36,126 nt of DNA, taken from NCBI GenBank assembly GCA_029061225.1, contig JAIDSM010000075.1:1-36126 (forward strand). The letters run 5' to 3'. The notes under the pieces were generated by a model that saw only the letters and a list, made by a program, of their open reading frames with translations, was not told the origin of the DNA and did not search any database. Source of the DNA: Muribaculaceae bacterium. Lineage in GTDB: Bacteria > Bacteroidota > Bacteroidia > Bacteroidales > Muribaculaceae. The translations under genes were made by a program, and so were the position numbers. Below, in pieces: positions 509-34,692 of the stretch (position 1 is the first letter of the stretch; each line of letters starts with the position of its first letter).

Positions 509-2023
509 ATGGCAAAGAAAGTAAAGGCTAAAGATACAAAAAAGACTATTGAGCAGATTCTTTGGGATTCGGCTAATGAATTGAGAGGTAATCTTGACGC
601 TGCCGAGTATAAATCGGTGGTGCTGGGTCTTGTGTTCCTCAAATATATCAACGATTGTTTCAAAACCAAATATGATGAACTCGTTGCCGAAGGTGAAGGT
701 TTCGAGGAGGATGCTGACGAATACATAGGCGACAATATTTTCTTTGTTCCCGCGGATGCCCGTTGGGATAAGATTGTAAATGCAGCTCTTACTGCCGAGA
801 TCGGCGTTGTCGTTGATAAGGCGATGGAGGCTCTTGAACGGGAGAACAAGCAGCTCAAAGGAATACTGCCGAAGAATTATGCTCGTCCTGAACTTGACAA
901 ACGGCGCCTCGGTAATGTTGTTGACATTTTTGAGAATAACTTGCACTTTACCGGTGGTGAAGCGCGTGATGTGCTTGGGCGAGTTTATGAATACTTCCTC
1001 GGTGAGTTTGCTCGAGAAGAAGGAAAAAAAGGTGGCGAGTTTTACACCCCGGAGTGCGTGGTACGCACTATTGTAGAAGTAATTCAGCCCTATAAGGGAA
1101 AAATCTTTGACCCGGCTTGTGGCTCCGGCGGTATGTTCGTGCAGTCATCCAAGTTTATAGAGCGTCATCAGGGTAACGTCAATCAAATATCTGTCTATGG
1201 ACAGGAACTGAATTCAAATACTTGGCGATTGGCACAGATGAACCTTGCTATTCGCGGTATCGAGGCAAACTTCGGTAGCTCTTACGCAGATTCATTCCAT
1301 GATGACAAGCATCCATTCCTGAAAGCTGACTTCGTGATGGCAAACCCTCCGTTCAATATCTCGAAATGGGGAGGCGATCAACTTAAAGATGACCCGCGTT
1401 GGGTATATGGAACGCCGCCTGAGGGCAACGCCAACTTCGCATGGATGCAGCACATGCTTTATCACCTTGCTGACACCGGGCGCATCGGGCTTGTTTTGGC
1501 TAATGGTTCTCTCTCCTCTGAACAAGGCGGCGAGGGTGAGATACGCAAAAATATCGTCAATGCCGACTTGGTTGAAGGCATCATCGCCATGCCGAGCCAG
1601 TTGTTCTATAACGTGCAGATACCATGCTGCCTGTGGTTCCTAACGAAGAAGAAATCACAACCAGGCAAGACTCTTTTCATCGATGCCCGCAACATGGGCT
1701 ATATGAAAGACCGCACCCACCGCGAACTCGATCCCGACACTGACATTAAGAAGATTGCCGATACCTTCGAGGCATTCCGTCGCGGCGAAGACGTTGACGA
1801 GAAAGGCTTTGCCGCAGTAGCCACCACTGCCGATATTGAAAAAGAGGGATTCGTTCTGACTCCCGGCCGTTATGTAGGAGTGGCTGAAGTTGAGGACGAC
1901 GGCGAGCCATTCGAAGAAAAAGTGTCGCGCCTCACCACCGAACTCCGCGATCTCTTCGCCAAATCCGCCGAACAAGAAACCGAAATACGCAAACAACTTG
2001 CCTCCATCGGCATAAACCTCTGA
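509..2023 (+). CDS. hsdM: Type I restriction-modification, methyltransferase subunit HsdM
   Basis: This is the adenine-N6 DNA methyltransferase subunit of a type I restriction-modification enzyme. It combines with HsdS to methylate a bipartite site and joins HsdR in the restriction complex. Residues about 10-140 form the helical HsdM N-terminal domain. The methyltransferase domain follows, with the SAM-binding motif DPACGSGG from residue 201 and the catalytic NPPF motif at residue 279, both intact. At 504 aa it has the usual length. The start follows the promoter at 360-390 and gives the family's normal N-terminus. It is the first gene of the operon, 4 bases ahead of a small membrane-protein gene. 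Codon use is more GC-rich than in hsdS and the accessory genes, as expected for a conserved core subunit. Confidence 0.97.
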   Translation: MAKKVKAKDTKKTIEQILWDSANELRGNLDAAEYKSVVLGLVFLKYINDCFKTKYDELVAEGEGFEEDADEYIGDNIFFVPADARWDKIVNAALTAEIGVVVDKAMEALERENKQLKGILPKNYARPELDKRRLGNVVDIFENNLHFTGGEARDVLGRVYEYFLGEFAREEGKKGGEFYTPECVVRTIVEVIQPYKGKIFDPACGSGGMFVQSSKFIERHQGNVNQISVYGQELNSNTWRLAQMNLAIRGIEANFGSSYADSFHDDKHPFLKADFVMANPPFNISKWGGDQLKDDPRWVYGTPPEGNANFAWMQHMLYHLADTGRIGLVLANGSLSSEQGGEGEIRKNIVNADLVEGIIAMPSQLFYNVQIPCCLWFLTKKKSQPGKTLFIDARNMGYMKDRTHRELDPDTDIKKIADTFEAFRRGEDVDEKGFAAVATTADIEKEGFVLTPGRYVGVAEVEDDGEPFEEKVSRLTTELRDLFAKSAEQETEIRKQLASIGINL

Positions 2024-2027
2024 TCAA

Positions 2028-2279
2028 ATGGATGTTGCTGTCTTAATTTGCTCAATAATCGCAGCCTTTGGCAGTATTTTTTCATATCTAATGTGGCGTG
2101 ATAGCAGACGTTGCATACTCAGAAGGATTGAGAAAAGAGTGCGTAAGATAAAAGAAATTCAGAATTATCTTTATCGTAAGTATAAACAGGATTATTCCAT
2201 GTGTGCTCCAAGCGGTCCGTTATATATGAAAATGAGTAAATTACAGTCCGAGATAGGTTACCTAAAAAAACTTCTTTGA
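2028..2279 (+). CDS. Small membrane-anchored coiled-coil protein of unknown function
   Basis: I do not recognise this 83-aa protein. Residues about 4-22 form one hydrophobic segment (VAVLICSIIAAFGSIFSYLM), followed by a strongly basic stretch rich in Arg and Lys (about 24-42). A Lys/Tyr-rich helix and a final amphipathic helix that could form a short coiled coil come last. The positive-inside rule would put the C-terminal part in the cytoplasm. The gene lies 4 bases after hsdM and 1 base before hsdS, so it must be co-transcribed and is probably translationally coupled. A membrane protein between the M and S genes is not part of a standard type I system. Its tight fit in the operon supports it being a real gene. 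Any function, such as anchoring or regulating the enzyme, is inference. Confidence 0.7.
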   Translation: MDVAVLICSIIAAFGSIFSYLMWRDSRRCILRRIEKRVRKIKEIQNYLYRKYKQDYSMCAPSGPLYMKMSKLQSEIGYLKKLL

Positions 2280-2280
2280 T

Positions 2281-3471
2281 ATGAGCGAGTGGAAAAAATG
2301 TACTATTGGTGAACTTGGTAAAATCATAACAGGTAAAACACCTCGAACTACCATTACAGAAAATTATGATGGCAATATACCCTTTCTTACACCATCTAAT
2401 AACATGGACGTTAAATATGTTGGAATAACTAATAAAACGCTTTCTGAACAAGGAGTTAGAGAAGTTAAGAATTGCTTATTGCCAGAGGGGGCGGTTTGTG
2501 TAAGTTGTATCGGGTCCGATTTGGGAAAAGTCCTAATTACTACTCAACCGACTGTAACCAATCAGCAAATCAATTCGATAATAGTCAACGATGAGAACGA
2601 TATTGATTTCGTTTACTACCTGATGACCATTGTAGGAAAACGTCTCAATATAATTTCAAAAACCTCAACCGCAGTCCCCATCATAAACAAATCTTCTTTC
2701 TCAAATTATAAGGTTACACTCCCGAATATAGAAACGCAAAAGAAAATTGCGAAGATTTTGTCGTCGCTTGATGATAAGATCGAAACCAATCGGAAGATAA
2801 ATGCGCGGTTGGAGGAGTTGGCGCAGGCAATTTTTAAGTCGTGGTTTATCGACTTCGAACCTTTCGGCGGCAAAATGCCGGAAGATTGGAATGAAGGTAC
2901 AGCTGAAGATTTCTTTAGGATAGATATTGGCAAAACTCCTCCTAGAAAAGAAAATCAGTGGTTCTCTAACAATAACAAAAATATTACATGGATATCAATA
3001 TCAGATATGGGCAAATCAGGGATGTTCATTTCAACATCATCTGAGATGCTGACAAAAGAAGCAATAAATAAATTCAAAATTGCAATTGTTCCCCAAAATA
3101 CAATTTTATTGAGTTTTAAGCTTACAGTTGGACGCGTATCGATAGCTAATTCAGAATTAACAACGAACGAAGCCATAGCACGCTTCCAACTCAACAATTC
3201 ATTTGAAAGAGAATACTTATATTTTTTTCTAAAGGAATATGATTACAATTCTTTAGGAAGTACTTCTTCAATTGCAACGGCTGTTAATTCAAAAATAATA
3301 AAAAGGATGTCGGTTATTATGCCCAAAGAACAAGTCTTAAAGCAATTTAGTGCGTTAGTATCACCACTCTTCAATAGAATTGAGTCGTTGACAAAAGAAT
3401 CTACCTTGTTAGCTAAATTGCGTGATACACTTCTGCCTAGATTGATGTCAGGTGAAATTAAAGTGGAATAA
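2281..3471 (+). CDS. hsdS: Type I restriction-modification, specificity subunit HsdS
   Basis: HsdS recognises the two halves of the target sequence and holds two HsdM subunits. The 396-aa protein has the usual layout. Target-recognition domain 1 covers about 1-150. The central conserved helix pair follows at about 151-196 (starting ETQKKIAKILSSLDDKIETN, with the SWFIDFEPF stretch). Target-recognition domain 2 covers about 200-345. The last helix ends with LPRLMSGEIKV. The recognition domains are AT-rich and unlike hsdM in codon use, which is typical of exchanged domains. It starts 1 base after the small membrane-protein gene. I see no second partial hsdS or inverted copy in the window, and no nearby recombinase, so there is no sign of a shuffling shufflon-type locus here. 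The recognition sequence cannot be predicted by eye. Confidence 0.96.
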   Translation: MSEWKKCTIGELGKIITGKTPRTTITENYDGNIPFLTPSNNMDVKYVGITNKTLSEQGVREVKNCLLPEGAVCVSCIGSDLGKVLITTQPTVTNQQINSIIVNDENDIDFVYYLMTIVGKRLNIISKTSTAVPIINKSSFSNYKVTLPNIETQKKIAKILSSLDDKIETNRKINARLEELAQAIFKSWFIDFEPFGGKMPEDWNEGTAEDFFRIDIGKTPPRKENQWFSNNNKNITWISISDMGKSGMFISTSSEMLTKEAINKFKIAIVPQNTILLSFKLTVGRVSIANSELTTNEAIARFQLNNSFEREYLYFFLKEYDYNSLGSTSSIATAVNSKIIKRMSVIMPKEQVLKQFSALVSPLFNRIESLTKESTLLAKLRDTLLPRLMSGEIKVE

Positions 3472-3503
3472 TTCCGTTATATTATAGGATAGAACTGAAT
3501 ACA

Positions 3504-4406
3504 ATGCGATTTTATAGAGAAAAATGTTTGGCTGCCCTAATGGAACAATTTGGCGATTGGATGCCAAGCATACAAATACAGAAGCTCGTTTTCCTCTTGA
3601 CTGATAGGCAAGAGGAACGGGTTTATGACTTCATGCCTTATAAGTACGGATGCTACTCCATGCAATTAAGTCAAGATTTAAGAAATCTAACTAAAGAGGG
3701 AATTCTACAATTTGAAGAGGACGGGGCTAATAATAGATATAAGATTGCAAGAAACGACTTGAGAATATATAATATGATTAAGGTCGAAGATAATTATGCA
3801 ATAGCTCGGATAATTAAAAGATTTGCGCTTCTATCAGTGACAGATTTAATAAGATACACTTATCAGAATTATCCTTTTTTTGCCATAAATAGTAAGATGG
3901 CAAAAGACCTTTTATCGGAAATAGAGTATTCGATAGTAGTTAAGCAAAGGCCACACAAAAATGATATGTCATTAATAACCATTGGCTACGAAGGGCTCTC
4001 ATTGGAACAATACATAGTGATCTTACTGCGCAACGATGTTCGAGTACTTTGTGATGTTAGAAAAAATGCTTATAGTCAGAAATTTGGATTTTCTAAGGCT
4101 CAATTAGTAAAAGCTTGTGAGGGTGTAGGCATTAGATACGAACACATTCCTAATCTAGGAATAATCTCTGAAAAGAGAAAAGAGTTGAAGAATCAAACAG
4201 ATTATGATAAACTATTTGATGAATATGAGTCAACGACGTTGAAGTCTGCCAGAAATGAATTGAATCATCTCTACAAGCTTCTCCAAAATGACAAACGAAT
4301 AGCATTAACTTGTTTCGAGCATAACCCTTTGCAGTGCCATAGAAGCAGAATAGCAAAAAAATTAATGTCTATTTCACAATGTAATTATACTCTAATAAAT
4401 CTATAA
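3504..4406 (+). CDS. DUF488-family protein with N-terminal winged-helix-like domain
   Basis: This 300-aa protein has two parts. Residues about 1-125 look like a small helical, winged-helix-type region with the pattern YDFMPYKYGCYSMQLSQDL, which resembles domains fused to DUF488 proteins or found in Panacea/DUF4065 proteins (weak recognition). From residue 157 a DUF488 domain begins (ITIGYEGLSLEQYI). It continues with DVRKNAYS and ends with the family's Cys-Cys-His-Arg signature, Cys270 and then Cys278-His279-Arg280. DUF488 has no settled function, but its conserved cysteines suggest binding of a metal or a nucleotide. It sits 32 bases after hsdS and 4 bases before the 287-aa gene, inside a type I operon that would normally go straight from S to R. 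A role in DNA modification or defence is inference from position. Confidence 0.82.
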   Translation: MRFYREKCLAALMEQFGDWMPSIQIQKLVFLLTDRQEERVYDFMPYKYGCYSMQLSQDLRNLTKEGILQFEEDGANNRYKIARNDLRIYNMIKVEDNYAIARIIKRFALLSVTDLIRYTYQNYPFFAINSKMAKDLLSEIEYSIVVKQRPHKNDMSLITIGYEGLSLEQYIVILLRNDVRVLCDVRKNAYSQKFGFSKAQLVKACEGVGIRYEHIPNLGIISEKRKELKNQTDYDKLFDEYESTTLKSARNELNHLYKLLQNDKRIALTCFEHNPLQCHRSRIAKKLMSISQCNYTLINL

Positions 4407-4410
4407 TCCT

Positions 4411-5274
4411 ATGGCTAAAACTAAGGTACTTGTCACGGTAAAAACATATCCGACCTTATCTCAAAAGTATGACGAACTTGTGTGCACTGCCGGTTTTTTA
4501 GAAGACGGCTCGTGGATAAGGATATATCCTGTACCGTTCCGGAAATTAGATACTCGTTACAAGAAATGGCAATGGATTGAACTCGATTTAGTAAAGAACA
4601 CATCTGATCCAAGAAAAGAAAGTTATCGACCTGTGGACTACGATGACATAACCCTTGGAGAAATAATAGACACTAAGAAGAATGGATGGGAACAGAGGAA
4701 AAAATATGCTTTGAAGAAAGTATATACAAATATGTCAGACCTTATTGCAGAAGCCAAGAATCGTGCCATAGGGACATCGTTAGCCGTTTTTAAACCATCC
4801 GAAATTATTGATTTTAAGTATGTGCCCTGTAAAAGGGATTGGGATGAGAAAAAAGTAAAGGCTATATATGCCAGAGCTGCACAGGGTAACTTATTTGATA
4901 CAGAAGAAGAGAGGGAAGTAAAGAAATTATTTCAAATAGTAGATAAAATTCCCTATGAGTTTTCGTATGTATTTAAATCAGAAGATGGGAAAAGGCGCAA
5001 ACTCATGATAGAAGACTGGGAAGTTTGTGCCCTTTACCGACGCTATGTGAAGGATTACCATCTTTCTGAAATAGAAGCTTGTGAAAAAGTACGAGAAAAA
5101 TATTTAAACGAGTTTGCACGAAAAAAAGATTTGTATTTTTTCTTAGGCACTACGTTGCAACATCATTTTACCGGTAAAAATCCTTTCATCATAATAGGAA
5201 CCTTCACCCCACCATATCCGCAACAGAAACCACAGCAACCATCGCTTTTTGATTTTGATTCCGAGTGCAAATAA
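4411..5274 (+). CDS. Conserved protein of unknown function paired with DUF488 gene
   Basis: I cannot assign this 287-aa protein to a named family. It begins MAKTKVLVTVKTYPTLSQKY and has a striking conserved-looking stretch at residues 33-44 (GSWIRIYPVPFR). A charged block follows (KNTSDPRKESYRPVDYDD). There is no signal peptide or clear membrane segment, so it is probably cytoplasmic. The C-terminus is Pro/Gln-rich (PPYPQQKPQQPSLFDF), which could be a flexible tail or peptide contact. The stretch FFLGTTLQHHFTGKNPFIIIGTF near residues 250-270 looks like a compact beta-rich end. It starts 4 bases after the DUF488 gene and ends 2 bases before the preferred hsdR start, so the pair is probably made together and may act together. 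It contains no motif that I recognise as a nuclease, helicase or methyltransferase. Confidence 0.75.
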   Translation: MAKTKVLVTVKTYPTLSQKYDELVCTAGFLEDGSWIRIYPVPFRKLDTRYKKWQWIELDLVKNTSDPRKESYRPVDYDDITLGEIIDTKKNGWEQRKKYALKKVYTNMSDLIAEAKNRAIGTSLAVFKPSEIIDFKYVPCKRDWDEKKVKAIYARAAQGNLFDTEEEREVKKLFQIVDKIPYEFSYVFKSEDGKRRKLMIEDWEVCALYRRYVKDYHLSEIEACEKVREKYLNEFARKKDLYFFLGTTLQHHFTGKNPFIIIGTFTPPYPQQKPQQPSLFDFDSECK

Positions 5275-5276
5275 AA

Positions 5277-8200
5277 ATGGGTAACACATATCACTATACG
5301 GAGGACTCTTACGAGCAGACAGTTCTGGATCTGTTCAGGGAGATGGACTATGAGGTGCTTCATGGTCCGGCTGTTGACGCGGAAACGGGGCGCGACCTAA
5401 CCGATTCCACAATTCCCGGTAAACTTCGCGAGGCTATGCTGCGCATAAACGGCACGGAGAAAACGGCAGCCGTAGACGAGGCTATCCGCAAGGTGCATGA
5501 GCAGTTTTCCCAACCACTCGTGCAGGCAAACGTACAACTTACCGACTGGTTGCAAAATGGCCTTGACGTAACATTTAAAACCACTGAGGGTAATCTCAAA
5601 AGCGATCATGTCCGCTTAATTGACATTGATGAGAAGAGTCTAACTATAAATAATACATTTCAAGTTGTCAATCAATGGACGGTTGTCAATGGTCAAGCGA
5701 GAAAACGAGCTGACCTCGTGGTATTCATCAACGGGCTACCTATCTCCATAATCGAACTGAAATCTCCGAGCCGCGAAGTGACAAACTCAGAGGAGGCCTA
5801 TCTGCAACTGCAAAACTATATGCGGCAGATTCCTCAACTTTTCACAGCCGCGCAGATGCTCGTAATCAGTGATATGGCAGATACACAGGTCGGCACAATC
5901 ACAGCCCCGCATGATCGATATATGGAGTGGAAGACTACGGACGGTTCATATGAAAGCACTGCAATCGCTGATTTTCAGACCTTCTTTGAGGGTATCTTTG
6001 ACCGTAAACGGCTTATTGATATAATCGCAGACTTTTCGCTGTCGATGGGGAGCGACACAAAGAAAGCCCGGATTCTTGCCGGTTATCACCAATATTTCGC
6101 TGTAAAAAAAGCGATGCAATGCACTCTGGAAGCTCTCGGACGCAAAGACGGCAAGATCGGTGTATTCTGGCACACACAAGGTTCAGGGAAAAGTCTTTCA
6201 ATGGTATTCTATGCGCATCAGTTACTGAAAAATCTGCTGAGCGCGACCATACTTGTACTTACTGACCGACTTGACCTTAACGACCAGTTGCACTCTACGT
6301 TCGCAGCTTGCAGCGACTATCTCCGACAAACGCCGGTAAAGGCGACTGACGGTGACCAGTTGTATGAGTTGCTCGAAAAACGCAAAAGCCACGGCATAAT
6401 CTTTGCTAACATTCAAAAATTCAAAGACCGCAAAGAGGCTATTACTACAAGGTCAGATGTCATAGTTATGAGCGACGAGGCTCACCGCTCTCAAAGTAAT
6501 ATCAAAACCAAAGTTGATGCTGCAAACGGTGAATTGAAACTTGGTTTTGCCGCCATTGTTCGTAAACTTCTCCCCAACGCCGCGTTCATTGGCTTTACGG
6601 GTACTCCTATCGAATCTGACGATAACGACACCCGTGAGGTGTTTGGTAACTACATCGACATATACGACATGACCCAGGCTGTGGAAGATGGAGCCACCGT
6701 GCCCGTATATTACGAGAGCCGACTTATAAAGCTCAACCTTGACGAAGAGATATTGCGTTTGCTTGACCGCGAGTATGATAAACTCGCCGAAGAAGGTGCC
6801 GACGATGAAGACATCAAACGCTCCAAACAGGAGAACACACAACTCCATGCCTTGCTCCACGCCCCGGAAACCATCGACACGCTTTGCCGCGATATAATCG
6901 AGCATTATGAAAACAACAGGCAAGACCACCTCACCGGGAAAGCGATGATTGTGGCACTTGACCGAGCGACAGGTATAGCCATATATAAGAAACTTATTGA
7001 ATTGCGACCTCAGTGGAAAGAGATGATCGGTGTGGTGATGACTCAAGGCAACCAAGACCCGGTGGACTGGAACGATATTATCGGATCACCGGCACACAAG
7101 CAAGAGCTTGCGCGACAGTTCAAGGACAACGACTCGGCGATGAAGATTGCTATTGTTGTTGATATGTGGCTGACAGGGTTTGACGTTCCAAGTCTCGCCA
7201 CAATGTATGTCTATAAGCCGATGAAAGGTCACAACCTGATGCAGGCGATAGCACGTGTTAACCGCGTGTTCCCGGAAAAGAGCGGTGGCTTGGTAGTTGA
7301 TTACATCGGTATAGCCCAAGCTCTGAAAAAGGCTATGCACGACTACACCAACCGTGATAAAAAGCGATTTGGTGACCCCGACATAAAGAAAACAGCCTAT
7401 CAGGAATTTCTTGCAACCCTTGACCGTTGCCGCGAGTGCATGAACGGATTTGACAATTCCGAATTTGCAACCTGCTCGAACTTGCAACGTGCAAATCTCA
7501 TCAAAGGAGGCGTAAACGTGCTGCTCGACCCCAATAATATCGTCAGCAGCCGGTGCGAAGGAAATGTTACCAAATATGATAGTGCTCAAAAGGTATTTAT
7601 CGACGAGAGCAAACGTCTTGCACAAGCCACTACATTGTGCCGTAGCCTATTGTCTCCGGCAGAAAAATTTGAGGAGGCATATTTTGAAGCTGTACGCACA
7701 CTCCTTGTACGTCTGACGACCAATAAGAAAATTACTCGTAAAATTATTGACGAGAGAATTACCAATCTGCTTAAAGTTGCAGTAAAGGCTGACGGAGTTG
7801 TAGAGATTCTCACCACAAAGGATACAGAATTTAATCTCTTTGATGAGAAATTTCTCAAGGAAGTTGCAGACATGAAAGAGAAGAACTTCGCTCTTGAACT
7901 TCTCAAACGATTGCTCGAACAGCATATCCGTAAACACGCAAAAAAGAACATGACTCAAGCCGACAAATTCAGCGAAATGCTTGATGCCCGGCTTGCCGAG
8001 TATTTGCGTGGCTTGATAAGTAACGAGGAAGTGATACAGGAACTTCTCAAAATGGCCCGAGAGCTGAAAGCCCACGCCGAGCAAGCGTCTGAATTCGGCT
8101 TGACTGAGGAAGAACAGGCATTTTATGATGCCCTCACTCGCCCTCAAGCTGTCAAGGATTTTTATGAGAATGAAACACTTGTTGCAATGGCGAAGGAACT

Positions 8201-8882
8201 AACTGAAGCCCTGCGCAGCAGCAAGACTATTGATTGGCGCCAGAAGGAATCAGCCCGAGCCAATATGCGTCGCATGGTAAAGCGACTTCTCAAGAAGTAC
8301 AAATATCCACCGGAAGAACAAGAAAAGGCTTTAGAGACAGTTATTAAACAATGCGAGCTTTATGCGGATTCTGAGGAAGAGAATTACACATCTTTCTCGC
8401 AATTCAAATCATATTCGGAAGAATACAATACCGAATATGCTATAGCTGCTGAGCCATTCGAAATATACAAGAGAAATGATATTAATGAAACTATTCTACT
8501 TGGATGCTATAGAGATAAAAATCATTTGGAGTGGATTCTTAAAAATCATCTATACAATATCCGTTTAGGTCAACGTAAAGGTTCAGCTGCAGAAAAACCG
8601 GAATGTCTTAATATAGCTACCCGTCTGTATCTGTATAATCCAAAGAAACCTTCCGATGTTACTGTATTTACAATTGTTGGAAATAAAGAAATGTCGGGAA
8701 GAGAAATGACAGATTTGGATTATCCTCGAAAGTCTCCTGGAAAATCTTACATGACATACAATATCGAAGAATGTAGAAATGATGGGGAATTAAAGCCTAA
8801 TATATCCAAAATTCTTGCCGGACTTGATAATCATATTAATGGAGCTCCAGTTTTTATTGTGCCGAATAAAAACCAATCTTAA
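5277..8882 (+). CDS. hsdR: Type I restriction-modification, restriction subunit HsdR with extra C-terminal domain
   Basis: HsdR is the ATP-driven translocase and nuclease that cuts unmethylated DNA. The nuclease domain holds RADLVVFINGLP and IELKS (about residues 145-162), the PD-(D/E)XK core. Helicase motif I is TQGSGKS near residue 300, motif II is DEAH near 399, and motif III is FTGTP. I place the start at ATG 5277, two bases after the previous stop. A GTG at 5265 would add only four residues and overlap the upstream gene. At about 1201 aa it is long: related HsdR proteins usually end near the CELYAD segment, around residue 1030 here. The last 170 residues or so form an extra, AT-rich block with no motif I recognise (see findings). 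Confidence 0.95.
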   Translation: MGNTYHYTEDSYEQTVLDLFREMDYEVLHGPAVDAETGRDLTDSTIPGKLREAMLRINGTEKTAAVDEAIRKVHEQFSQPLVQANVQLTDWLQNGLDVTFKTTEGNLKSDHVRLIDIDEKSLTINNTFQVVNQWTVVNGQARKRADLVVFINGLPISIIELKSPSREVTNSEEAYLQLQNYMRQIPQLFTAAQMLVISDMADTQVGTITAPHDRYMEWKTTDGSYESTAIADFQTFFEGIFDRKRLIDIIADFSLSMGSDTKKARILAGYHQYFAVKKAMQCTLEALGRKDGKIGVFWHTQGSGKSLSMVFYAHQLLKNLLSATILVLTDRLDLNDQLHSTFAACSDYLRQTPVKATDGDQLYELLEKRKSHGIIFANIQKFKDRKEAITTRSDVIVMSDEAHRSQSNIKTKVDAANGELKLGFAAIVRKLLPNAAFIGFTGTPIESDDNDTREVFGNYIDIYDMTQAVEDGATVPVYYESRLIKLNLDEEILRLLDREYDKLAEEGADDEDIKRSKQENTQLHALLHAPETIDTLCRDIIEHYENNRQDHLTGKAMIVALDRATGIAIYKKLIELRPQWKEMIGVVMTQGNQDPVDWNDIIGSPAHKQELARQFKDNDSAMKIAIVVDMWLTGFDVPSLATMYVYKPMKGHNLMQAIARVNRVFPEKSGGLVVDYIGIAQALKKAMHDYTNRDKKRFGDPDIKKTAYQEFLATLDRCRECMNGFDNSEFATCSNLQRANLIKGGVNVLLDPNNIVSSRCEGNVTKYDSAQKVFIDESKRLAQATTLCRSLLSPAEKFEEAYFEAVRTLLVRLTTNKKITRKIIDERITNLLKVAVKADGVVEILTTKDTEFNLFDEKFLKEVADMKEKNFALELLKRLLEQHIRKHAKKNMTQADKFSEMLDARLAEYLRGLISNEEVIQELLKMARELKAHAEQASEFGLTEEEQAFYDALTRPQAVKDFYENETLVAMAKELTEALRSSKTIDWRQKESARANMRRMVKRLLKKYKYPPEEQEKALETVIKQCELYADSEEENYTSFSQFKSYSEEYNTEYAIAAEPFEIYKRNDINETILLGCYRDKNHLEWILKNHLYNIRLGQRKGSAAEKPECLNIATRLYLYNPKKPSDVTVFTIVGNKEMSGREMTDLDYPRKSPGKSYMTYNIEECRNDGELKPNISKILAGLDNHINGAPVFIVPNKNQS

Positions 8883-8923
8883 GTCGTACAATGACCTACT
8901 TAAATTCTAAATGCTTACCTGTC

Positions 8924-8941
8924 TCACAATGTTTTTTGTGA
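8924..8941 (+). terminator. Weak hairpin between hsdR and the 644-aa gene
   Basis: TCACAA at 8924-8929 pairs with TTGTGA at 8936-8941 around a T-rich loop. It lies in the 100-base gap after hsdR, which has no TAnnTTTG promoter that I can see. It could be a partial terminator or attenuator ahead of the next gene. The stem is only 6 bp and no T run follows, so a terminator role is weakly supported. Confidence 0.25.
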
Positions 8942-8982
8942 CTTCCGAATAATTACATTCAAAAATATTCTAGCATATTATC

Positions 8983-10917
8983 ATGAATATCAAATATATA
9001 ATCTTCAAATCTGAATACCATCCCGAATGGAAAGAACTCAAAATATCTAATCCAAAGCTTTACCAAGAATTAAAGCGAAGGTCTGTGTCTGAGAGATTAA
9101 ATGAACTCATTCCGATATATCAAAATTGGCAGAAGCGAACTCAAAAATTTACCATCTATGAAAACTCCCTGCCCGATGTAGAAACTCAACTCAAATCAAT
9201 TGATTTTGAAAACTATAATAATGGGTGGCAAATACGTTTGAAGTTAGCCAAGTCTTTCTATCAGAAATGTATGTGCTATCCAGTTGATAGACTCAATAAG
9301 GAAAGTAAAAAATTTTCTGACTACAAATGGATTATCAAGGATCTTATCAATAAATCCATAATTACTCTGTATAAGAGAAGAATATTCATATACCATAGAA
9401 TTGAAAAGTCTTTAAGTCTATCTTCTCATAAAATTGAAAAAATTCCTCTATGGGGTTACTTGCCATTTTACAACCATCTGGTTGGAGTAGAGTGGATTAA
9501 AAGCCGCATTGGGGATAATATCAAAGATTTGGCAAAATATTGGTTAGTATTGCTTTGCTTTGATGAAACAATGTTTTCATCAGACCTTTTCATTGAGTCT
9601 CTTACAAATACAATAGGTAATGAGATGGTTATTCAACTTAAAACTAACCTGATTAATAAGTTTAATGCCAGACAGAATTATTACAAGAAAGAATTTCCTG
9701 TTACATTTAAGAAATTAAATGAGTGGAAGGAAGTTAATTGTAGACTCCTAAGCCAAGAAACCAGTATTAATCAGATTTATACCAAAGACCAAACATCTAA
9801 AACAGGAAAAGTCGATACAAATAAAATACCATTGTTCCCTTCTGCGATGGATGATCCAGTAGTAAAAACAGAGGAGTCAATAATACGAGGAGTAAAAGCA
9901 AAAGATTTTATCGTCAAGTGTGGATCTATTAGCTATGGTAAGCATTCTTTGATTTCATCTAAAATTAAATCAGATGTTCCTTCTTCAGTTCTGTCCCTGA
10001 TTGATTATCGTTTTACTCTAAAGATGCGCATAAATTATACAAAATCAGGAAAAATTAAACATAAAAGGTTCTCTTTTGAACCGTTCGAGGATTTATCTGT
10101 TCTTCTATCAGAATGTGAAAGAATTCTCAAAATTACTTCAATCAAACCACTTGATTATTTTCCTCAGTCAGGAAAGTTTTACTTGCCATGGAAGTATGTA
10201 TTCTTCTATGACAATATTATGTATCTTGCTCACCCGAACCCATCAAAATATGGTTCCGTAAATCCATTCGCGTTCCGTCATCCTTACATCACAAAATCAT
10301 TTCGTGATTTGATGTCATATATAGAAGATCGATGTCCTAAATTCTATGTCCGTGCTATAGATGGAGTGATTGTAGCCCTATTGAATTTCAAGAGTTTCCA
10401 ACAAATGATTCCGCAGTTTCGAGAGTATTCTTCTGAAACACTCGGAGGAATTGATGAATTATCATACTCCAAATTAAGAAATTCATACAGCTCTACAGAT
10501 TTCTCACATCTGAAATTCGTAAAGAAATCCCCATATCTCTCCCATCTGTCATCCCTCCAAGTTTCTTCCAGAAAGATCTATCGAATTTTAGAGCGCGTAA
10601 TACATGCTCAGGCAGACACCGACTTCGATGAGTTTGGCTTCCTCTTTACTGTCATGGAATATAGGAGTTATTCCATAGTAATATATGAGAATGCCTCCGA
10701 TGAATCTCGCAGTTCCATCCTCTTTCAGGTCCGCACTTCCGAATTCGAGGAAGCAATCGAGGTCATCCGCTCATTCTTTGCCAGTAACGAAGCTAATAAG
10801 CGCCAGCGTCTAGCCCAATCCACCATCCGCCTCAAATCCCCTGCAATCCTCTCTTATCGCCGTATCCACCACACGAACTTCTACGACTGGCGCTTGAATC
10901 TCTCCGGCATCCTATAA
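8983..10917 (+). CDS. Large protein of unknown function at the end of the type I operon
   Basis: I do not recognise this 644-aa protein. It is rich in Lys, Ser, Tyr and Ile, with no signal peptide or membrane segment. The N-terminal half is mainly helical. The middle (about residues 300-450) looks more beta-rich, with patterns such as FRHPYITKSFRDLMSYIEDRCPKFYV (split here: FRHPYITKSF, then RDLMSYIEDRC). There is no Walker A, DEAD, HNH, or DNA methyltransferase motif. It lies 101 bases after hsdR on the same strand and ends the operon. The gene is strongly AT-rich up to about 10580. The last 110 codons are clearly C-rich (for example the RQRLAQSTIRLKSPAILSYR region), so its 3' end differs in codon use from the rest. 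A defence role is inferred only from its position and composition. Confidence 0.75.
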   Translation: MNIKYIIFKSEYHPEWKELKISNPKLYQELKRRSVSERLNELIPIYQNWQKRTQKFTIYENSLPDVETQLKSIDFENYNNGWQIRLKLAKSFYQKCMCYPVDRLNKESKKFSDYKWIIKDLINKSIITLYKRRIFIYHRIEKSLSLSSHKIEKIPLWGYLPFYNHLVGVEWIKSRIGDNIKDLAKYWLVLLCFDETMFSSDLFIESLTNTIGNEMVIQLKTNLINKFNARQNYYKKEFPVTFKKLNEWKEVNCRLLSQETSINQIYTKDQTSKTGKVDTNKIPLFPSAMDDPVVKTEESIIRGVKAKDFIVKCGSISYGKHSLISSKIKSDVPSSVLSLIDYRFTLKMRINYTKSGKIKHKRFSFEPFEDLSVLLSECERILKITSIKPLDYFPQSGKFYLPWKYVFFYDNIMYLAHPNPSKYGSVNPFAFRHPYITKSFRDLMSYIEDRCPKFYVRAIDGVIVALLNFKSFQQMIPQFREYSSETLGGIDELSYSKLRNSYSSTDFSHLKFVKKSPYLSHLSSLQVSSRKIYRILERVIHAQADTDFDEFGFLFTVMEYRSYSIVIYENASDESRSSILFQVRTSEFEEAIEVIRSFFASNEANKRQRLAQSTIRLKSPAILSYRRIHHTNFYDWRLNLSGIL

Positions 10918-11140: not shown

Positions 11141-11170
11141 TAGGTGAAGTCTACTACTAATACAAAAAAT

Positions 11171-11986
11171 ATGAATATAGGGAAACTTACCAGCGCAGCA
11201 TGCGTAGCTGCCGTCGCCGGCATCTCGCTCTTTACCTCTTGCCGTTCAAAATCAATGCCGTCGGAATTGGAAGAAAACAAGAGGCAAATGACATTGACAT
11301 GGATTGAAGACAAACCCGGTCCTTCTGTGAATGACCGCAGTCTCTTTCCTGAAGTCCCCGATTCCATCTGGGATGCTCTCGGCCTTAAAGATGGGATTCC
11401 GTCTTCTATGAGTTGCTTCCTTGTCCAGACAGACGGGAAAAATATCCTCTTCGATACAGGCCTGGGTGCCCCGTTCAGCCAACTTCAATCCAAACTTTCA
11501 GAGAAGGGACTGACTGTCGACAGTATAGACCATATCTTCCTTACCCACCTCCACGGCGACCATATCGGTGGCATGCTCAGCGACGGAAAGGCGGTTTTCC
11601 CAAATGCCGATGTGTATGTAAACCGTGTCGAGGCTGATGCCTGGGTCAATATGACCGACGTTAAAGGAGACCAGGCGTCGGCTGTCTTGAATGCGTACAA
11701 AGACCGATTGCATAAATTCGAAGCCGGAGATACTCTTGACTGCGCAATCGTGTCGATACCGGCATACGGTCACACTCCCGGCCATACAGTATACAGCATT
11801 GACAGCATTCTGATAGCAGGCGACCTCATGCATGGTGTAGCCTTGCAAAACATCTACCCTGATTATTGCGCCCGCTACGACATGGATAAGGAAGCCGCTG
11901 TCGAATCAAGAAAACGCATCCTCCAATACGCCAAGGACAATAATCTGACCCTCATCGGTATGCACTTCCCCCCAATCTCCGATTAA
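11171..11986 (+). CDS. Metallo-beta-lactamase-fold lipoprotein hydrolase
   Basis: This is a metal-dependent hydrolase of the metallo-beta-lactamase superfamily. The metal-binding motif is His126-Leu-His128-Gly-Asp130-His131. A later metal histidine lies in the GHTPGHTVY segment, and the IAGDLMHG segment supplies the bridging aspartate. The preferred start gives a lipoprotein signal with lipobox Leu-Phe-Thr-Ser-Cys24, so the enzyme is probably anchored to a membrane and faces the periplasm. Substrate is not clear; relatives include quorum-quenching lactonases and general MBL-fold hydrolases, and I would not call it a beta-lactam resistance enzyme. It ends abruptly after GMHFPPISD at a run of six C residues, where relatives usually continue, so a short C-terminal truncation is possible. 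It is transcribed alone and converges with the L,D-transpeptidase gene. Confidence 0.85.
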   Translation: MNIGKLTSAACVAAVAGISLFTSCRSKSMPSELEENKRQMTLTWIEDKPGPSVNDRSLFPEVPDSIWDALGLKDGIPSSMSCFLVQTDGKNILFDTGLGAPFSQLQSKLSEKGLTVDSIDHIFLTHLHGDHIGGMLSDGKAVFPNADVYVNRVEADAWVNMTDVKGDQASAVLNAYKDRLHKFEAGDTLDCAIVSIPAYGHTPGHTVYSIDSILIAGDLMHGVALQNIYPDYCARYDMDKEAAVESRKRILQYAKDNNLTLIGMHFPPISD

Positions 11987-29814: not shown

Positions 29815-32800
29815 CTATGTTAACTCTTTTCTGAGCATCAGATCCACAAGCAATACTGCATGTTCTTTTTCTTCTTGCACTGCATCTTTCGGCCGCCATG
29901 CCACTATAAACCGAATAGATGCAGAAACTACCTTGTAGTTTTTTCCAGTCCATAAATCCAACTCGTGCTGCATCTTTTGTGACAACTGCGCAACGACCTT
30001 ATTGCTCTCACATTCATATAGATAGTTATTTTCAAAACGTAGTCTCTGACCGGCCCTGAGGGCGAGTATCTCATTTTTCCTTGTTTTGAAGAAGCCAAGG
30101 TTTACATCTCTGTGGGATAATTGCAGAACAATCTCATCAGGCATACCATACAGCTCCTGCGATACATGATGCTCATCGGCCGGGATTTTATCGAAGATAG
30201 ATGTGTCGGTATGGATAAACAAGCGTTCTTTTGCCCTGGTTGCTCCTACATAGTATCGTCGCATCTCATTATTTTGGATGTTCTTTGGTTGGGCTATCAG
30301 CATATAAACATCATCAAACTCACGTCCCTTGGCTTTGTGAATAGTAGATACCACGACATCAGCACCTGAAAGATCACAAAAATCTTCTATTGATGATTCA
30401 AAGATAAATTCCTTAAAATCGGTAAAATATTTTGTTTTGTTGGTCTGCTCAAATAAGTATAGACAACGTTGCAGATAATTAAGACTTGACGAATTTGCAT
30501 ACACATCGAATGTCTTTTGCTTAGCCTTTTCCCACACTTGGTCCGGGATAATCGGGGTATGACTGGATTGGTCTATTTGTTTGAGAAACATGCGGACCTC
30601 TGCCATATTATAAAATCGAAATCCATCCATATTCTGCACCAGTCTGCTGTTCAATCCCTGTTTGCGTAATAATGCTACCAGAATTACAGCCTCTTCATTT
30701 GTCTGAGTCAATACACAAGTAGAACCGTTGCGTCGATGCTTTAATAAATCATTGACAAGAGGCTCGTACATTATATGGGAAACGTGATGGCGTATAAAGA
30801 CAGACCCTTCCTTATGACTCATTGAAACAATCGGATTAGTCTTCATTCTTCCAGCAATTCCATTTGCAAGCACATTAGCAAAATCAACCACATGGTGTGA
30901 ACTCCGGTAGTTCTCTGTCATTTCAATAAATCGTGCATCCGATTCTTTTAGCAGTTGGATCATATAACGGGAGTCAGAACCACGGAACTCAAAAATGTTT
31001 TGGTCATCATCCCCTACGGCAATCACTCGCATCTCCTCGTTGAATGACATAAGAGCATGCAGCAAAGCATACTCTTCAGCACTCATATCTTGAGCTTCAT
31101 CGATCACCAAAACTGTTTTTGCTATACGATTTGGTTCGACTTCCCCTTTCGTAATCATCTTGGCAGCCTCTGCAACAACTCCCTTAGCGTCGTCGAGACT
31201 GCCAATTCTACCCAATAGGTCAAAACAATAGGAATGAAATGTCTTTATCTCAACAAAGTGGGCTGCATTGCCAATAAGCCCCAACAACCGCTGCTTGAAC
31301 TCAGTAGCGGCAGCCCTCGAAAAAGTAAGCATCAACAGCTGTTCATGCTTGACATCTTCGAGCAAGAGCAACGAGGCGAGCTTATGAACCAATACACGTG
31401 TTTTTCCACTGCCGGGCCCTGCGGCTACCACAATACAGCGCGATTCCTTGTCGGATATAATCTCCATCTGCCTTTCAGAAAGAGTTCCGAAAATATGCTC
31501 ATATTTCTCGGGAGTGACATTCCGCTCGATTTCCCTCTGCCGCTCTCCTTTGAAATATTTGGAGAGAAACCGCTTGTAGTCCATATGAAAATAATCATGC
31601 ACATACTGCAAGGCGGCATTGTAATCGCGCACCATCAGATTGGCATATTCTCCTACTATATGCACCTGCTGGATCTTTTGCCTGTAGAACTCACTGAGCA
31701 TGCGGTAGTCTTCCTGCTTATAACGCAATCGGTTGTCTTTAAGACGACGGATGTCCATGGCGTTGTAGAGGACGAGAAAACCGCCCTCCAGCTTCAGGGC
31801 TCCGATCTTTGACAGATAGAGCAACGCTTCCTCCACATCCTCCAAGCGGACACTCTGCATGGACTCTAAAAGGGTATTTCCGGACGACTTCAGATCTTTC
31901 AGCAACTCGACCACGGAAAAGCTTATACCTTTACCTTTCGAACCCTCTTCAACCGATTGAGGAATTTGCCTGTAAAGCCATCCGATTGCAAACTGACATA
32001 TCTCCAGTCTTTTTTCAAAACGTCTCAGTGTTGACATCACATCCGTCTGGCAACTCAATTCAATATTGCGTGAAGCATCCTCTTTCTTACGTGTATATCC
32101 CTTAACTGTCAGAAAATAGAGCAATGTACGGATATCTTTTTCAGTCGCTGTCTCCACACCATCCTTATGCGCATTGTCGTTGAGCTGCTTATAGGATATA
32201 CGGCATGCATCAGAAGAAATGAATCCGAGGATGTAACGCTCAAGTCGCGTGAATCGTTCCAAAAGACGCTTTGATTTATTTTCCGAATCTCCGGAATCGT
32301 GCAGATAGGCGGAAATGTCTTTTGAATCGGCAAGAATTCCTTCCTGACGCATACGCTCCACACTGGAGACAACATCGTTCTTGCTCAGTCCAAGGATATC
32401 CGCAAGATAATCTATGCGAGATTCCGCTTCCGAATCCTGAGCCTTAGCAATATGCTTCTGCGATATCAGCGACTTTATTATGCGCACAGCCTTATCAACC
32501 TCTTCTTTTTCAAAAAGCAGCGATTCTGTGATTCGCCTTCGCGCTTCATCCATATTCTTTACGGTTATGCCCGTAGCATAGACATGCGGGACATTGCTTC
32601 CGCGCTCAATATAACCAGCCTGCTCCAAGGCCGCCAAAGCCGTACGCACACGTGTCTCTATGTCAGAAACAGAATCATCCCAACCTGCCTGCCGTGCAAT
32701 TTCCAAGGCAGAGCAGCACACACGCATACGCTGCTTGGTTAAATCCTTCACGGCTTTCCATACTTGTTGTATCTCGCTAATACTGAGCTTAGTCTGGTTG

Positions 32801-34692
32801 AGCAAGATAAAATGTTTGTCAAGATCAGCATCGCTATATAATACGAAGCATCGGGCTTCAAGATGTGGGTCGCGACCTGCGCGTCCAGCCTCCTGAACAT
32901 AATTCTCCAATGAATCAGAAATGTCATAGTGTATCACCAGACCAACATCTTTTTTGTCAACCCCCATACCGAAGGCAGATGTCGCCACAATGATACGCAC
33001 CCTGTCGTACATGAAAGCTTCCTGATTGGCCACCTTATCATCCACATTCATCCTTCCATTGAAGGGAAGGGCCTTGAAACCATCCCGCGTAAGTTTTTCA
33101 GCCAATTGCTGCGTCCGTTTGGTACGAGACACATACACGATGGTCGGAGACGAGGATTCAGCGATCAGCGAACGCAGTTTCACATACTTCTCCTCTTCCG
33201 TATCGACATGAATAACAGAATACCGCAGGTTGGTACGAGTGGCAGACGATGCGAATATCTTTAGATCAATATCGAGAGTCTTCTTGAAGTAGTCGCATAT
33301 ATCCTGTATGACCTTCTGCTTAGCAGTCGCCGTAAAGCAGGAAATGGGTATGGCCTTATTGCTCCTTTTTTTCTTCAGGTATTCGCGGAAGAACTTCCCG
33401 ATATAGAGATAATCTACCCGGAAATCCTGTCCCCACGAGGAGAAACAGTGTGCTTCATCTATTACAACACGCACTATATGGCGGGCCAGCAATATTTTCT
33501 CTATGGTCTTAGACCGCAGCATTTCCGGAGCTATGTATAGAAGGGAGGCTTCTCCATCCATCACGCGCTGTATAGCTTCCGCCCGACTCAGAGGATCAAG
33601 AAGACCATTGATAGTGACGGCGTCGGTAATTCCCCTTTCTGCAAGATTATCCACCTGATCCTTCATCAAAGATTGTAACGGAGAGATGACGACTGTAAGA
33701 CCATGTACTGAACGCCCTTCCATTAAGGCCGGCAACTGGAATGTCAGAGATTTTCCTCCCCCCGTAGGGAAAATGGCCAGAAGCGATTTATGCTCTACCG
33801 CAGCACGAACAGCATTCTCCTGCAGGGGTTCTCCATCATAAGTCCGGAACTTGTCAAAGCCGAAGAATCGATTGAGATTAACATGCACATCAAGTTCTGT
33901 GTTGCAATATGTGCAACCCTGGCTGCATTTAGTATGCCGGAGCAGTAGCACCAGATTCTCAACATTCGGATAATTTTGCAGAACCCATCCGGGTGTGATG
34001 GATCGATAATCTGTGGTGTCGATCAAAGCAAGCGCGTATGCCAATTCACGCGGGTATTTCCGAATTGCACTTTCTATATCTGCATTATGGCAGATCTTGT
34101 CTCTATATTCTGACTGAATCTGCCTCACTAATGACTCTTTCAGTCCAACTTTCGCATTGACAAAAGCCAAGAATCCCTTAAATTCGTCAAGACCTTGGAG
34201 AAGGGTTGCAAATATCATCTTCTTAGAGTCTGAAAGTCGTTCCCAACAAGAGACTTCGTCCATGAGGAGGTCACGGGCTTTTTCACAGTCGTTTACAGGA
34301 TTGTTCAGTTGGTCGGATACAAGCTTGTCATCTTTCACCAAATGATGATAAGGACGCTCCGGAAAAAGCAGTGGAGACAAATAGAGGGTATCCACCAGTA
34401 TGAAATAGGGTATGGCATCACCAAACAAATACTTGGCGTCATGATGAATGATGTTATGTCCACAGATAAAATCCACATCCTTTAGGAAAGTAATCAGACC
34501 CTGCTTATCTGCTGCATGGTATACTGCGCCATCCCATCTTACAGCTCCAATATCATGAATCTTTTTATCACGCAATCCAACCTCAACATCCACAAAACAA
34601 TAGCGGGAAGCATCACGTGACGTTTCCCTTGAGCGGGGCTGCCTGTTTTCCGCTTCTTTGACCGCATGGATTATTCTATCCCAGAATGCCAT
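29815..34692 (-). CDS. DEDDh exonuclease-RecQ-UvrD fusion helicase
   Basis: One 1625-aa protein carries three DNA-processing modules. First is a DEDDh 3'-5' exonuclease (about 28-145) with Asp35-Val-Glu37, His79-Asn80 with Asp85, and the HHLVKDDKLVSDQLNN/ND region. A Cys cluster (CSQGCTYCNTE, about 255-265) follows. The RecQ helicase has PTGGGKS near residue 309, DEAH near 412 and EAGRAGRD near 602, then winged-helix-like regions to about 1040. The UvrD-type helicase has GPGSGKTRVL near 1089, IDEAQD near 1197, DDQNIFEFRGS and STIHKAKGREF near 1447. All catalytic motifs look intact. It is probably a DNA repair or anti-mobile-element machine. It is made with the upstream four-helix protein and both are bounded by the direct repeats at 29687 and 35673. 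Confidence 0.9.
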   Translation of the reverse strand: MAFWDRIIHAVKEAENRQPRSRETSRDASRYCFVDVEVGLRDKKIHDIGAVRWDGAVYHAADKQGLITFLKDVDFICGHNIIHHDAKYLFGDAIPYFILVDTLYLSPLLFPERPYHHLVKDDKLVSDQLNNPVNDCEKARDLLMDEVSCWERLSDSKKMIFATLLQGLDEFKGFLAFVNAKVGLKESLVRQIQSEYRDKICHNADIESAIRKYPRELAYALALIDTTDYRSITPGWVLQNYPNVENLVLLLRHTKCSQGCTYCNTELDVHVNLNRFFGFDKFRTYDGEPLQENAVRAAVEHKSLLAIFPTGGGKSLTFQLPALMEGRSVHGLTVVISPLQSLMKDQVDNLAERGITDAVTINGLLDPLSRAEAIQRVMDGEASLLYIAPEMLRSKTIEKILLARHIVRVVIDEAHCFSSWGQDFRVDYLYIGKFFREYLKKKRSNKAIPISCFTATAKQKVIQDICDYFKKTLDIDLKIFASSATRTNLRYSVIHVDTEEEKYVKLRSLIAESSSPTIVYVSRTKRTQQLAEKLTRDGFKALPFNGRMNVDDKVANQEAFMYDRVRIIVATSAFGMGVDKKDVGLVIHYDISDSLENYVQEAGRAGRDPHLEARCFVLYSDADLDKHFILLNQTKLSISEIQQVWKAVKDLTKQRMRVCCSALEIARQAGWDDSVSDIETRVRTALAALEQAGYIERGSNVPHVYATGITVKNMDEARRRITESLLFEKEEVDKAVRIIKSLISQKHIAKAQDSEAESRIDYLADILGLSKNDVVSSVERMRQEGILADSKDISAYLHDSGDSENKSKRLLERFTRLERYILGFISSDACRISYKQLNDNAHKDGVETATEKDIRTLLYFLTVKGYTRKKEDASRNIELSCQTDVMSTLRRFEKRLEICQFAIGWLYRQIPQSVEEGSKGKGISFSVVELLKDLKSSGNTLLESMQSVRLEDVEEALLYLSKIGALKLEGGFLVLYNAMDIRRLKDNRLRYKQEDYRMLSEFYRQKIQQVHIVGEYANLMVRDYNAALQYVHDYFHMDYKRFLSKYFKGERQREIERNVTPEKYEHIFGTLSERQMEIISDKESRCIVVAAGPGSGKTRVLVHKLASLLLLEDVKHEQLLMLTFSRAAATEFKQRLLGLIGNAAHFVEIKTFHSYCFDLLGRIGSLDDAKGVVAEAAKMITKGEVEPNRIAKTVLVIDEAQDMSAEEYALLHALMSFNEEMRVIAVGDDDQNIFEFRGSDSRYMIQLLKESDARFIEMTENYRSSHHVVDFANVLANGIAGRMKTNPIVSMSHKEGSVFIRHHVSHIMYEPLVNDLLKHRRNGSTCVLTQTNEEAVILVALLRKQGLNSRLVQNMDGFRFYNMAEVRMFLKQIDQSSHTPIIPDQVWEKAKQKTFDVYANSSSLNYLQRCLYLFEQTNKTKYFTDFKEFIFESSIEDFCDLSGADVVVSTIHKAKGREFDDVYMLIAQPKNIQNNEMRRYYVGATRAKERLFIHTDTSIFDKIPADEHHVSQELYGMPDEIVLQLSHRDVNLGFFKTRKNEILALRAGQRLRFENNYLYECESNKVVAQLSQKMQHELDLWTGKNYKVVSASIRFIVAWRPKDAVQEEKEHAVLLVDLMLRKELT

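Follow-up and report, generated by a model that had tools for sequence, protein, structure and literature searches.

The contig JAIDSM010000075.1 of a Muribaculaceae bacterium, analysed over its 36,126 nucleotides (the window), carries a type I restriction-modification operon at positions 509 to 10917, in which seven open reading frames (ORFs) were confirmed, all on the + strand. We found that the joint between hsdS and hsdR (the S/R joint) is occupied by two genes of PDC-M19, a phage-defence candidate (PDC) of PADLOC, and that a small gene for an 83-amino-acid protein occupies the joint between hsdM and hsdS (the M/S joint). The locus is probably best explained as a type I backbone whose M/S and S/R joints serve as cargo slots, the S/R slot holding an autonomous PDC-M19 cassette that would complement restriction as a second anti-phage system. 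The arrangement clearly adds a new case to an already known mode of defence stacking and does not amount to one new machine. As judged by sequence comparison, the insertion is clean, and the pair lies more often away from hsdR than beside it.

The inserted cassette spans 3475 to 5276, limits that are approximate and come from DNA comparison with the L010 locus and the G080 operon. Its first gene, M19A (3504 to 4406), encodes an N-terminal domain resembling the C-terminal part of DarG (residues about 2-144) fused to a DUF488 domain (about 155-300), the latter found by Pfam above the cut-off. The protein matched the PADLOC model PDC-M19A with an E value of 4e-107 (residues 3-299 of 300 on model positions 2-293 of 294). 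The second gene, M19B (4411 to 5274), encodes 287 amino acids, which the initial annotation had called unrecognised; this description did not hold, since the protein matched PDC-M19B with an E value of 3.5e-114 (residues 1-273 of 287 on model positions 1-266 of 269). PHROGs contains both proteins, the 287-amino-acid one as phrog_25907 (E 3e-61). The two genes are adjacent and both matches are near full length, which places the pair in PDC-M19.

Two operons of the same genus (G080 and G029), whose HsdR proteins are 92-93% identical to that of the window, lack the M19 pair and represent a clean empty site. The order in G080 is a helix-turn-helix (HTH) gene, hsdM, a relative of the 83-amino-acid gene, hsdS and hsdR, with hsdS and hsdR 3 bases apart; in G029 two other genes, one with an AlbA_2 domain and one with a weak HATPase match, lie between hsdM and hsdS in an otherwise similar series of HTH gene, hsdM, hsdS and hsdR. 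DNA similarity between the window and G080 extended over 509-2295 and began again at 5277, the ATG of hsdR, with one short conserved piece inside hsdS. The nearest M19 pair, that of L010, which is the closest relative of the window pair and comes from a 20.8 kb locus free of hsd genes, was similar over 3475-5213 only (76%). Because the G080 similarity resumes at 5277 and the L010 similarity is confined to 3475-5213, the cassette reads as an insertion in the S/R joint bounded by gene ends. The base composition, a feature beyond the initial annotation, agrees with an insertion: the operon is a mosaic in which the guanine-plus-cytosine (GC) content of hsdM is 48.5% and that of the hsdR body 46.6%, whereas hsdS, the 83-amino-acid gene, M19A, M19B, the C-terminal tail of HsdR and the gene for a 644-amino-acid protein downstream of hsdR lie at 33-37%. 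All the marks of a defence module nested within a type I locus were thus found: the pair lies between hsd genes, matching operons without it exist, and copies of it occur on their own.

A scan of species genomes yielded 357 relatives of M19B, the best 80 of which were kept. M19A lay beside M19B on the same strand in 78 of these 80 loci (the order being reversed in L045), and the other two loci start at a contig end. An hsdR gene was detected within 5 kb of the pair in 10 of the 80 loci. Because many contigs are short and 41 loci span 5 kb on both sides of the pair, the fairer figure is nine of 41 (one a fragment), with none detected in the other 32; these counts rest on hsd models built by iteration from the same loci, by which distant hsd genes could be missed. 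Genes of the hsd type stood on both sides of the pair in six of the 80 loci. The order was M-S-x-pair-R in a Paludibacter metagenome-assembled genome (MAG; L022) and R-pair-S in four other Bacteroidales loci and, with one extra gene, in a Leptospiraceae MAG (L060). In a tree of the 81 loci with one near-full copy of each gene, out of 86 (the 80, five viral loci and the window), the type-I-linked pairs fell on six separate branches, as read from the topology without branch supports.

A context check within the phylum covered 20 pairs, namely 18 of the 21 hits outside the own genome (three weak or broken ones omitted) together with G043 and G056; four of these loci have contigs equal in length to contigs among the 80 and are probably duplicates of them (L192/L077, L196/L059, L201/L087 and L208/L058). 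Type I genes accompanied the pair in L199 (R-pair-S), in L191, where no hsdR was detected, and in L202 and L203 (M-S-R-pair), two genomes of one genus in which M19B is split. The initial annotation had taken recurrence beside hsd genes in unrelated hosts as the sign of a system, and for the DUF488/287-amino-acid pair such recurrence was found (Paludibacter, Bacteroidales, Leptospiraceae and L199).

M19B was present in 22 of 395 genomes of the phylum and in two of 111 genomes of the genus (own included in both), and an HsdR match, in some cases weak, in 60 of the 111. It also occurred in 23 plasmid records and in seven phage records, all from Gordonia phages, in all seven of which DUF488 and M19B hits lie next to each other. 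One Gordonia phage was read (L166, 3974-5271); its M19B gene comes directly after the immunity repressor and converges with a lone DUF488 gene, and an integrase is nearby. The region behind a phage immunity repressor is a typical place for defence genes expressed by the lysogen. Other pairs adjoin N6-methylase genes, and few neighbours of the pair were repeated between loci. Taken together, these genomic contexts argue that the M19 pair is an autonomous, mobile cassette, commoner apart from hsdR than next to it. As a separate observation, the pair in L019, L024, L037 and L068 is flanked on either side by a copy, full or partial, of an N6-methylase gene (of the Eco57I type in L037, the one scanned), and the two copies face opposite ways; in L024 and L037 a nearby gene is, by its motif, presumably a serine resolvase. 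Such loci are possibly phase-variable, and their inversion would carry the pair.

The S/R joint is also used by other genes within the genus. We surveyed 19 operons of M-S-R order, taken from 24 printed loci after five had been left out (the two loci of the 644-amino-acid protein, one short contig, one locus of R-M-S order and one without hsdS); the loci were picked from HsdR hits and are not a random sample, some are near-duplicates (L162 and L163), and genes were called as simple ORFs of at least 85 amino acids. The S/R joint was filled in nine of the 19 operons and the M/S joint in six. The S/R cargo, scanned in seven of the nine filled operons (all except L153 and L163), consisted mostly of known or candidate defence families, with matches to PD-T7-4 or DUF4145 with a SIR2 protein (PDC-S25), Abi_alpha (PDC-S47), YhcG/DUF1016 (PDC-S02), GmrSD (HEC-06) and AlbA_2. 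These results suggest that type I operons of this genus, a gut member of the Bacteroidales, have joints that work as interchangeable cargo bays, and that the S/R slot may be a cheap hunting ground for untested defence genes. Published precedents exist in other bacteria. The accessible part of one report describes an Escherichia coli island (RptR) that has DarTG2 located between hsdS and hsdR and protects against phages, and a further gene pair in the same slot in four genomes, which its authors regard as a potential recombination hotspot for defence systems (PMC12255303). TgvAB of Vibrio cholerae VPI-2 is described, in the corresponding part of its report, as a two-gene system between hsdR and hsdS in a five-gene type I cluster; its protection requires both genes, and against several phages TgvAB alone is slightly less protective than the complete cluster (PMC11411939).

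The domain composition of the pair gives some indication of how it might work. Residues 2-144 of M19A match the C-terminal domain of DarG, which binds the toxin DarT, and residues 27-134 also score on the C-terminus of one PADLOC Specificity_I model (positions 435-549 of 554, E 9.7e-10). In the DUF488 domain, the D-x-R and C-x-E...C-H-R residues were identical in 70 of 70 aligned homologues, and alignments showed that both M19A and M19B carry invariant, enzyme-like residues. Among the fold matches listed for M19B most were OB-fold proteins, with a resemblance to tandem OB-fold nucleic-acid binders of the RPA/POT1/HIN type. New here are the predicted DarG-like toxin-binding domain of M19A and the resemblance of the predicted M19B fold to tandem OB-fold binders; the former would give experiments a point of entry to DUF488, whose name marks it as a domain of unknown function. 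The gaps of 2 to 32 bases around its genes suggest that the cassette is transcribed with the operon, and the PDC-M19 system would work alone, in the way that TgvAB works from within a type I locus. M19B may bind nucleic acid through its possible tandem OB folds, sensing or targeting DNA of the phage or intermediates of replication; the DUF488 domain of M19A may be the enzyme, as its conserved residues suggest, and the DarG-like domain could dock on the partner protein and control it. Nesting in the hsd operon would then provide a two-layer defence acquired in one piece.

Several observations would fit a composite restriction system, whose type I enzyme has the products of the accessory genes as subunits or regulators dedicated to it: the genes lie on one strand throughout, four of the six junctions are tight, the pair recurs in or beside type I loci of several lineages (nine of the 41 fully flanked loci), the Specificity_I match suggests that the N-terminal domain of M19A may be fused to HsdS, and the 83-amino-acid gene is directly 5' of hsdS in the three loci found. 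We nevertheless regard such a composite as unlikely, given that 32 of the 41 fully flanked pairs have no hsdR within 5 kb, that M19B occurs in two of the 111 genus genomes against 60 with an HsdR match, some weak, that two operons with nearly identical hsdM and hsdR manage without the pair, and that two good relatives of the 644-amino-acid protein have no hsd link. The same 32 pairs, the L010 locus devoid of hsd genes and the two close operons lacking the pair speak against the one distinct, more complex module proposed in the initial annotation, and nothing was found linking all four accessory genes as a single system. It is also improbable that the pair is non-defensive cargo, for example for nucleic-acid repair or regulation, riding in mobile loci. 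The scarcity of repeated neighbours and the candidate status of its defence role would be compatible with such cargo, whereas the patchy distribution (22 of the 395 genomes of the phylum, counting that of the window), the occurrence in 23 plasmid records and a phage immunity region, the repeated nesting in type I loci, the location beside Eco57I-type methylase genes and the defence-rich occupants of the same S/R slot argue for a role in defence.

A further possibility is that PDC-M19 is a DarTG-like toxin-antitoxin system, with M19B as toxin and M19A as antitoxin, inserted as an abortive-infection or addiction unit. This would be a variant of the explanation preferred here, in that the autonomous cassette is common to both and the mode of action differs. 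The match of M19A residues 2-144 to the toxin-binding part of DarG, the DarTG2 precedent as described for the E. coli island (PMC12255303), the tight gene pair and the invariant enzyme-like residues of both proteins all point in this direction. On the other side, neither protein matched an ADP-ribosyltransferase or a macrodomain in the four libraries scanned (Pfam, NCBIfam, PADLOC and PHROGs), the distant DUF488 partners that were read lack the DarG-like domain, and this domain of M19A is not acidic, so we consider a toxin-antitoxin pair possible yet doubtful. There is a slim chance of a more elaborate sensor-effector arrangement, in which the DarG-type docking domain, fused to the DUF488 enzyme, would restrain the tandem-OB binder, single-stranded DNA arising from type I cutting and unwinding of phage DNA would be the trigger, and the 83-amino-acid protein would position the complex at the membrane, where phage DNA comes in. 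If this were true, S/R nesting would couple restriction to a back-up response.

As judged from their sequences, hsdM, hsdS and hsdR are an ordinary type I restriction-modification backbone, in accordance with the initial annotation, which had named these three genes and the DUF488 gene; all four were found by Pfam above the cut-off. HsdM (509 to 2023, 504 amino acids), a type I N6-adenine methyltransferase, matched N6_Mtase (8.6e-109) and HsdM_N (7.7e-24) in Pfam above the cut-off, and is 96.6% and 94.0% identical to its counterparts in G080 and G029. HsdS (2281 to 3471, GC content 35.6%) matched Methylase_S (1e-46) in two stretches, indicating two target-recognition domains, and is only 29-32% identical to the HsdS proteins of these operons. 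The HsdR body (5277 to 8456) contains a nuclease-type HSDR_N domain (7.8e-37), a SWI2_SNF2 motor (3.9e-72) and T1RH-like_C (1e-81), and is 93.1% and 92.5% identical to the HsdR proteins of G080 and G029, the closest in the genus. Beyond the point where the stop codon of these two falls, the HsdR of the window has about 140 further C-terminal amino acids (8457 to 8882, GC content 32.9%), which the initial annotation did not include and which were apparently acquired. This tail is 59% identical to the C-terminus of an HsdS-like protein of 547 amino acids in G110 and 36% identical to the C-terminus of HsdR in G090; common to HsdS-like and HsdR ends, it resembles a portable type I add-on domain. 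The MADS defence system was considered and rejected, as the scores on the MAD2/MAD5 equivalog models were too low (HsdM 55.1 bits against a cut-off of 720, HsdS 43.1 against 400). Many of the operons in the genus have, just 5' of hsdM or another methylase gene, a short HTH gene belonging to a single family (L128, L129, L130, L131, L133, L149, L154, L157, L158, L162, L163 and L165); this family had no match anywhere in the window.

The gaps between the seven genes are 4 bases (hsdM to the 83-amino-acid gene), 1 base (to hsdS), 32 bases (to M19A), 4 bases (to M19B), 2 bases (to hsdR at its ATG at 5277; an alternative GTG at 5265 overlaps) and 100 bases (to the 644-amino-acid gene). The tight spacing ascribed to most genes therefore applies to four of the six junctions, but not to hsdS-M19A or to the 644-amino-acid gene, which is not tightly coupled.

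The 83-amino-acid gene (2028 to 2279) encodes a protein with a single hydrophobic N-terminal segment (maximal 19-residue Kyte-Doolittle value 2.28, starting at residue 3), which makes its designation as a membrane protein plausible. Its relative in G080 shares 47-50% identity and lies between hsdM and hsdS, 1 base 5' of hsdS, and that in G151, from another family, shares 31% identity and lies 3 bases 5' of a 200-amino-acid hsdS-like ORF. The gene is under constraint, with a ratio of nonsynonymous to synonymous substitution (dN/dS) of 0.19 against G080. In all three loci where the gene was detected (window 2028-2279, L128 7481-7741 and L209 618-872), which come from two bacterial families, it stands immediately 5' of hsdS or of an hsdS-like ORF; in L209 a 343-amino-acid gene separates the relative from an hsdM fragment. 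The gene is thus tied by position to hsdS in the loci found, but three loci are too few for assigning a role. The 644-amino-acid gene (8983 to 10917) does follow hsdR as an orphan, and neither its product nor the 83-amino-acid protein had a useful match in Pfam, NCBIfam, PADLOC or PHROGs. Two good relatives of the 644-amino-acid protein are encoded in G071 and G025, where the stretches read, of 17 and 15 kb, are devoid of hsd genes; the one in G071 lies near a PcfJ-like gene. From these contexts it looks like unlinked cargo, probably outside the system, rather than part of a module.

Elsewhere in the window, a 1625-amino-acid protein (29815-34692) joins RecQ-like and UvrD-like helicase regions, with partial matches to the DpdF and GajB models. 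A metallo-beta-lactamase-fold protein (11144-11986) had a weak match to the anti-Pycsar protein Apyc1 below the cut-off (25.4 against 50 bits), and is probably an ordinary hydrolase.

Compared with known systems, the backbone resembles type I restriction-modification of the HindI-like HsdR group, having HsdM, HsdS and HsdR with the expected domains and a HindI-like C-terminal domain in HsdR; it differs in the additional C-terminal tail, the 83-amino-acid gene and the M19 cassette. The cassette agrees with PDC-M19 in both proteins, near full length and side by side, and here it is nested between hsdS and hsdR; PADLOC states no mechanism for it, and the accessible part of a further report describes most PDCs as lacking experimental validation (PMC12988326). 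With TgvAB, as far as the available part of its description goes, it shares the embedding of a two-gene system between hsdR and hsdS, but TgvAB is a GmrSD-like type IV restriction system, whereas M19A and M19B showed no GmrSD match in the Pfam scan. With the DarTG2/RptR island, as described in the accessible part of its report, it shares a two-gene system between hsdS and hsdR and, in M19A, a domain of the DarG C-terminal type; in place of a DarT-like transferase and a DarG macrodomain, neither of which was matched, it has a DUF488 domain and an OB-like partner.

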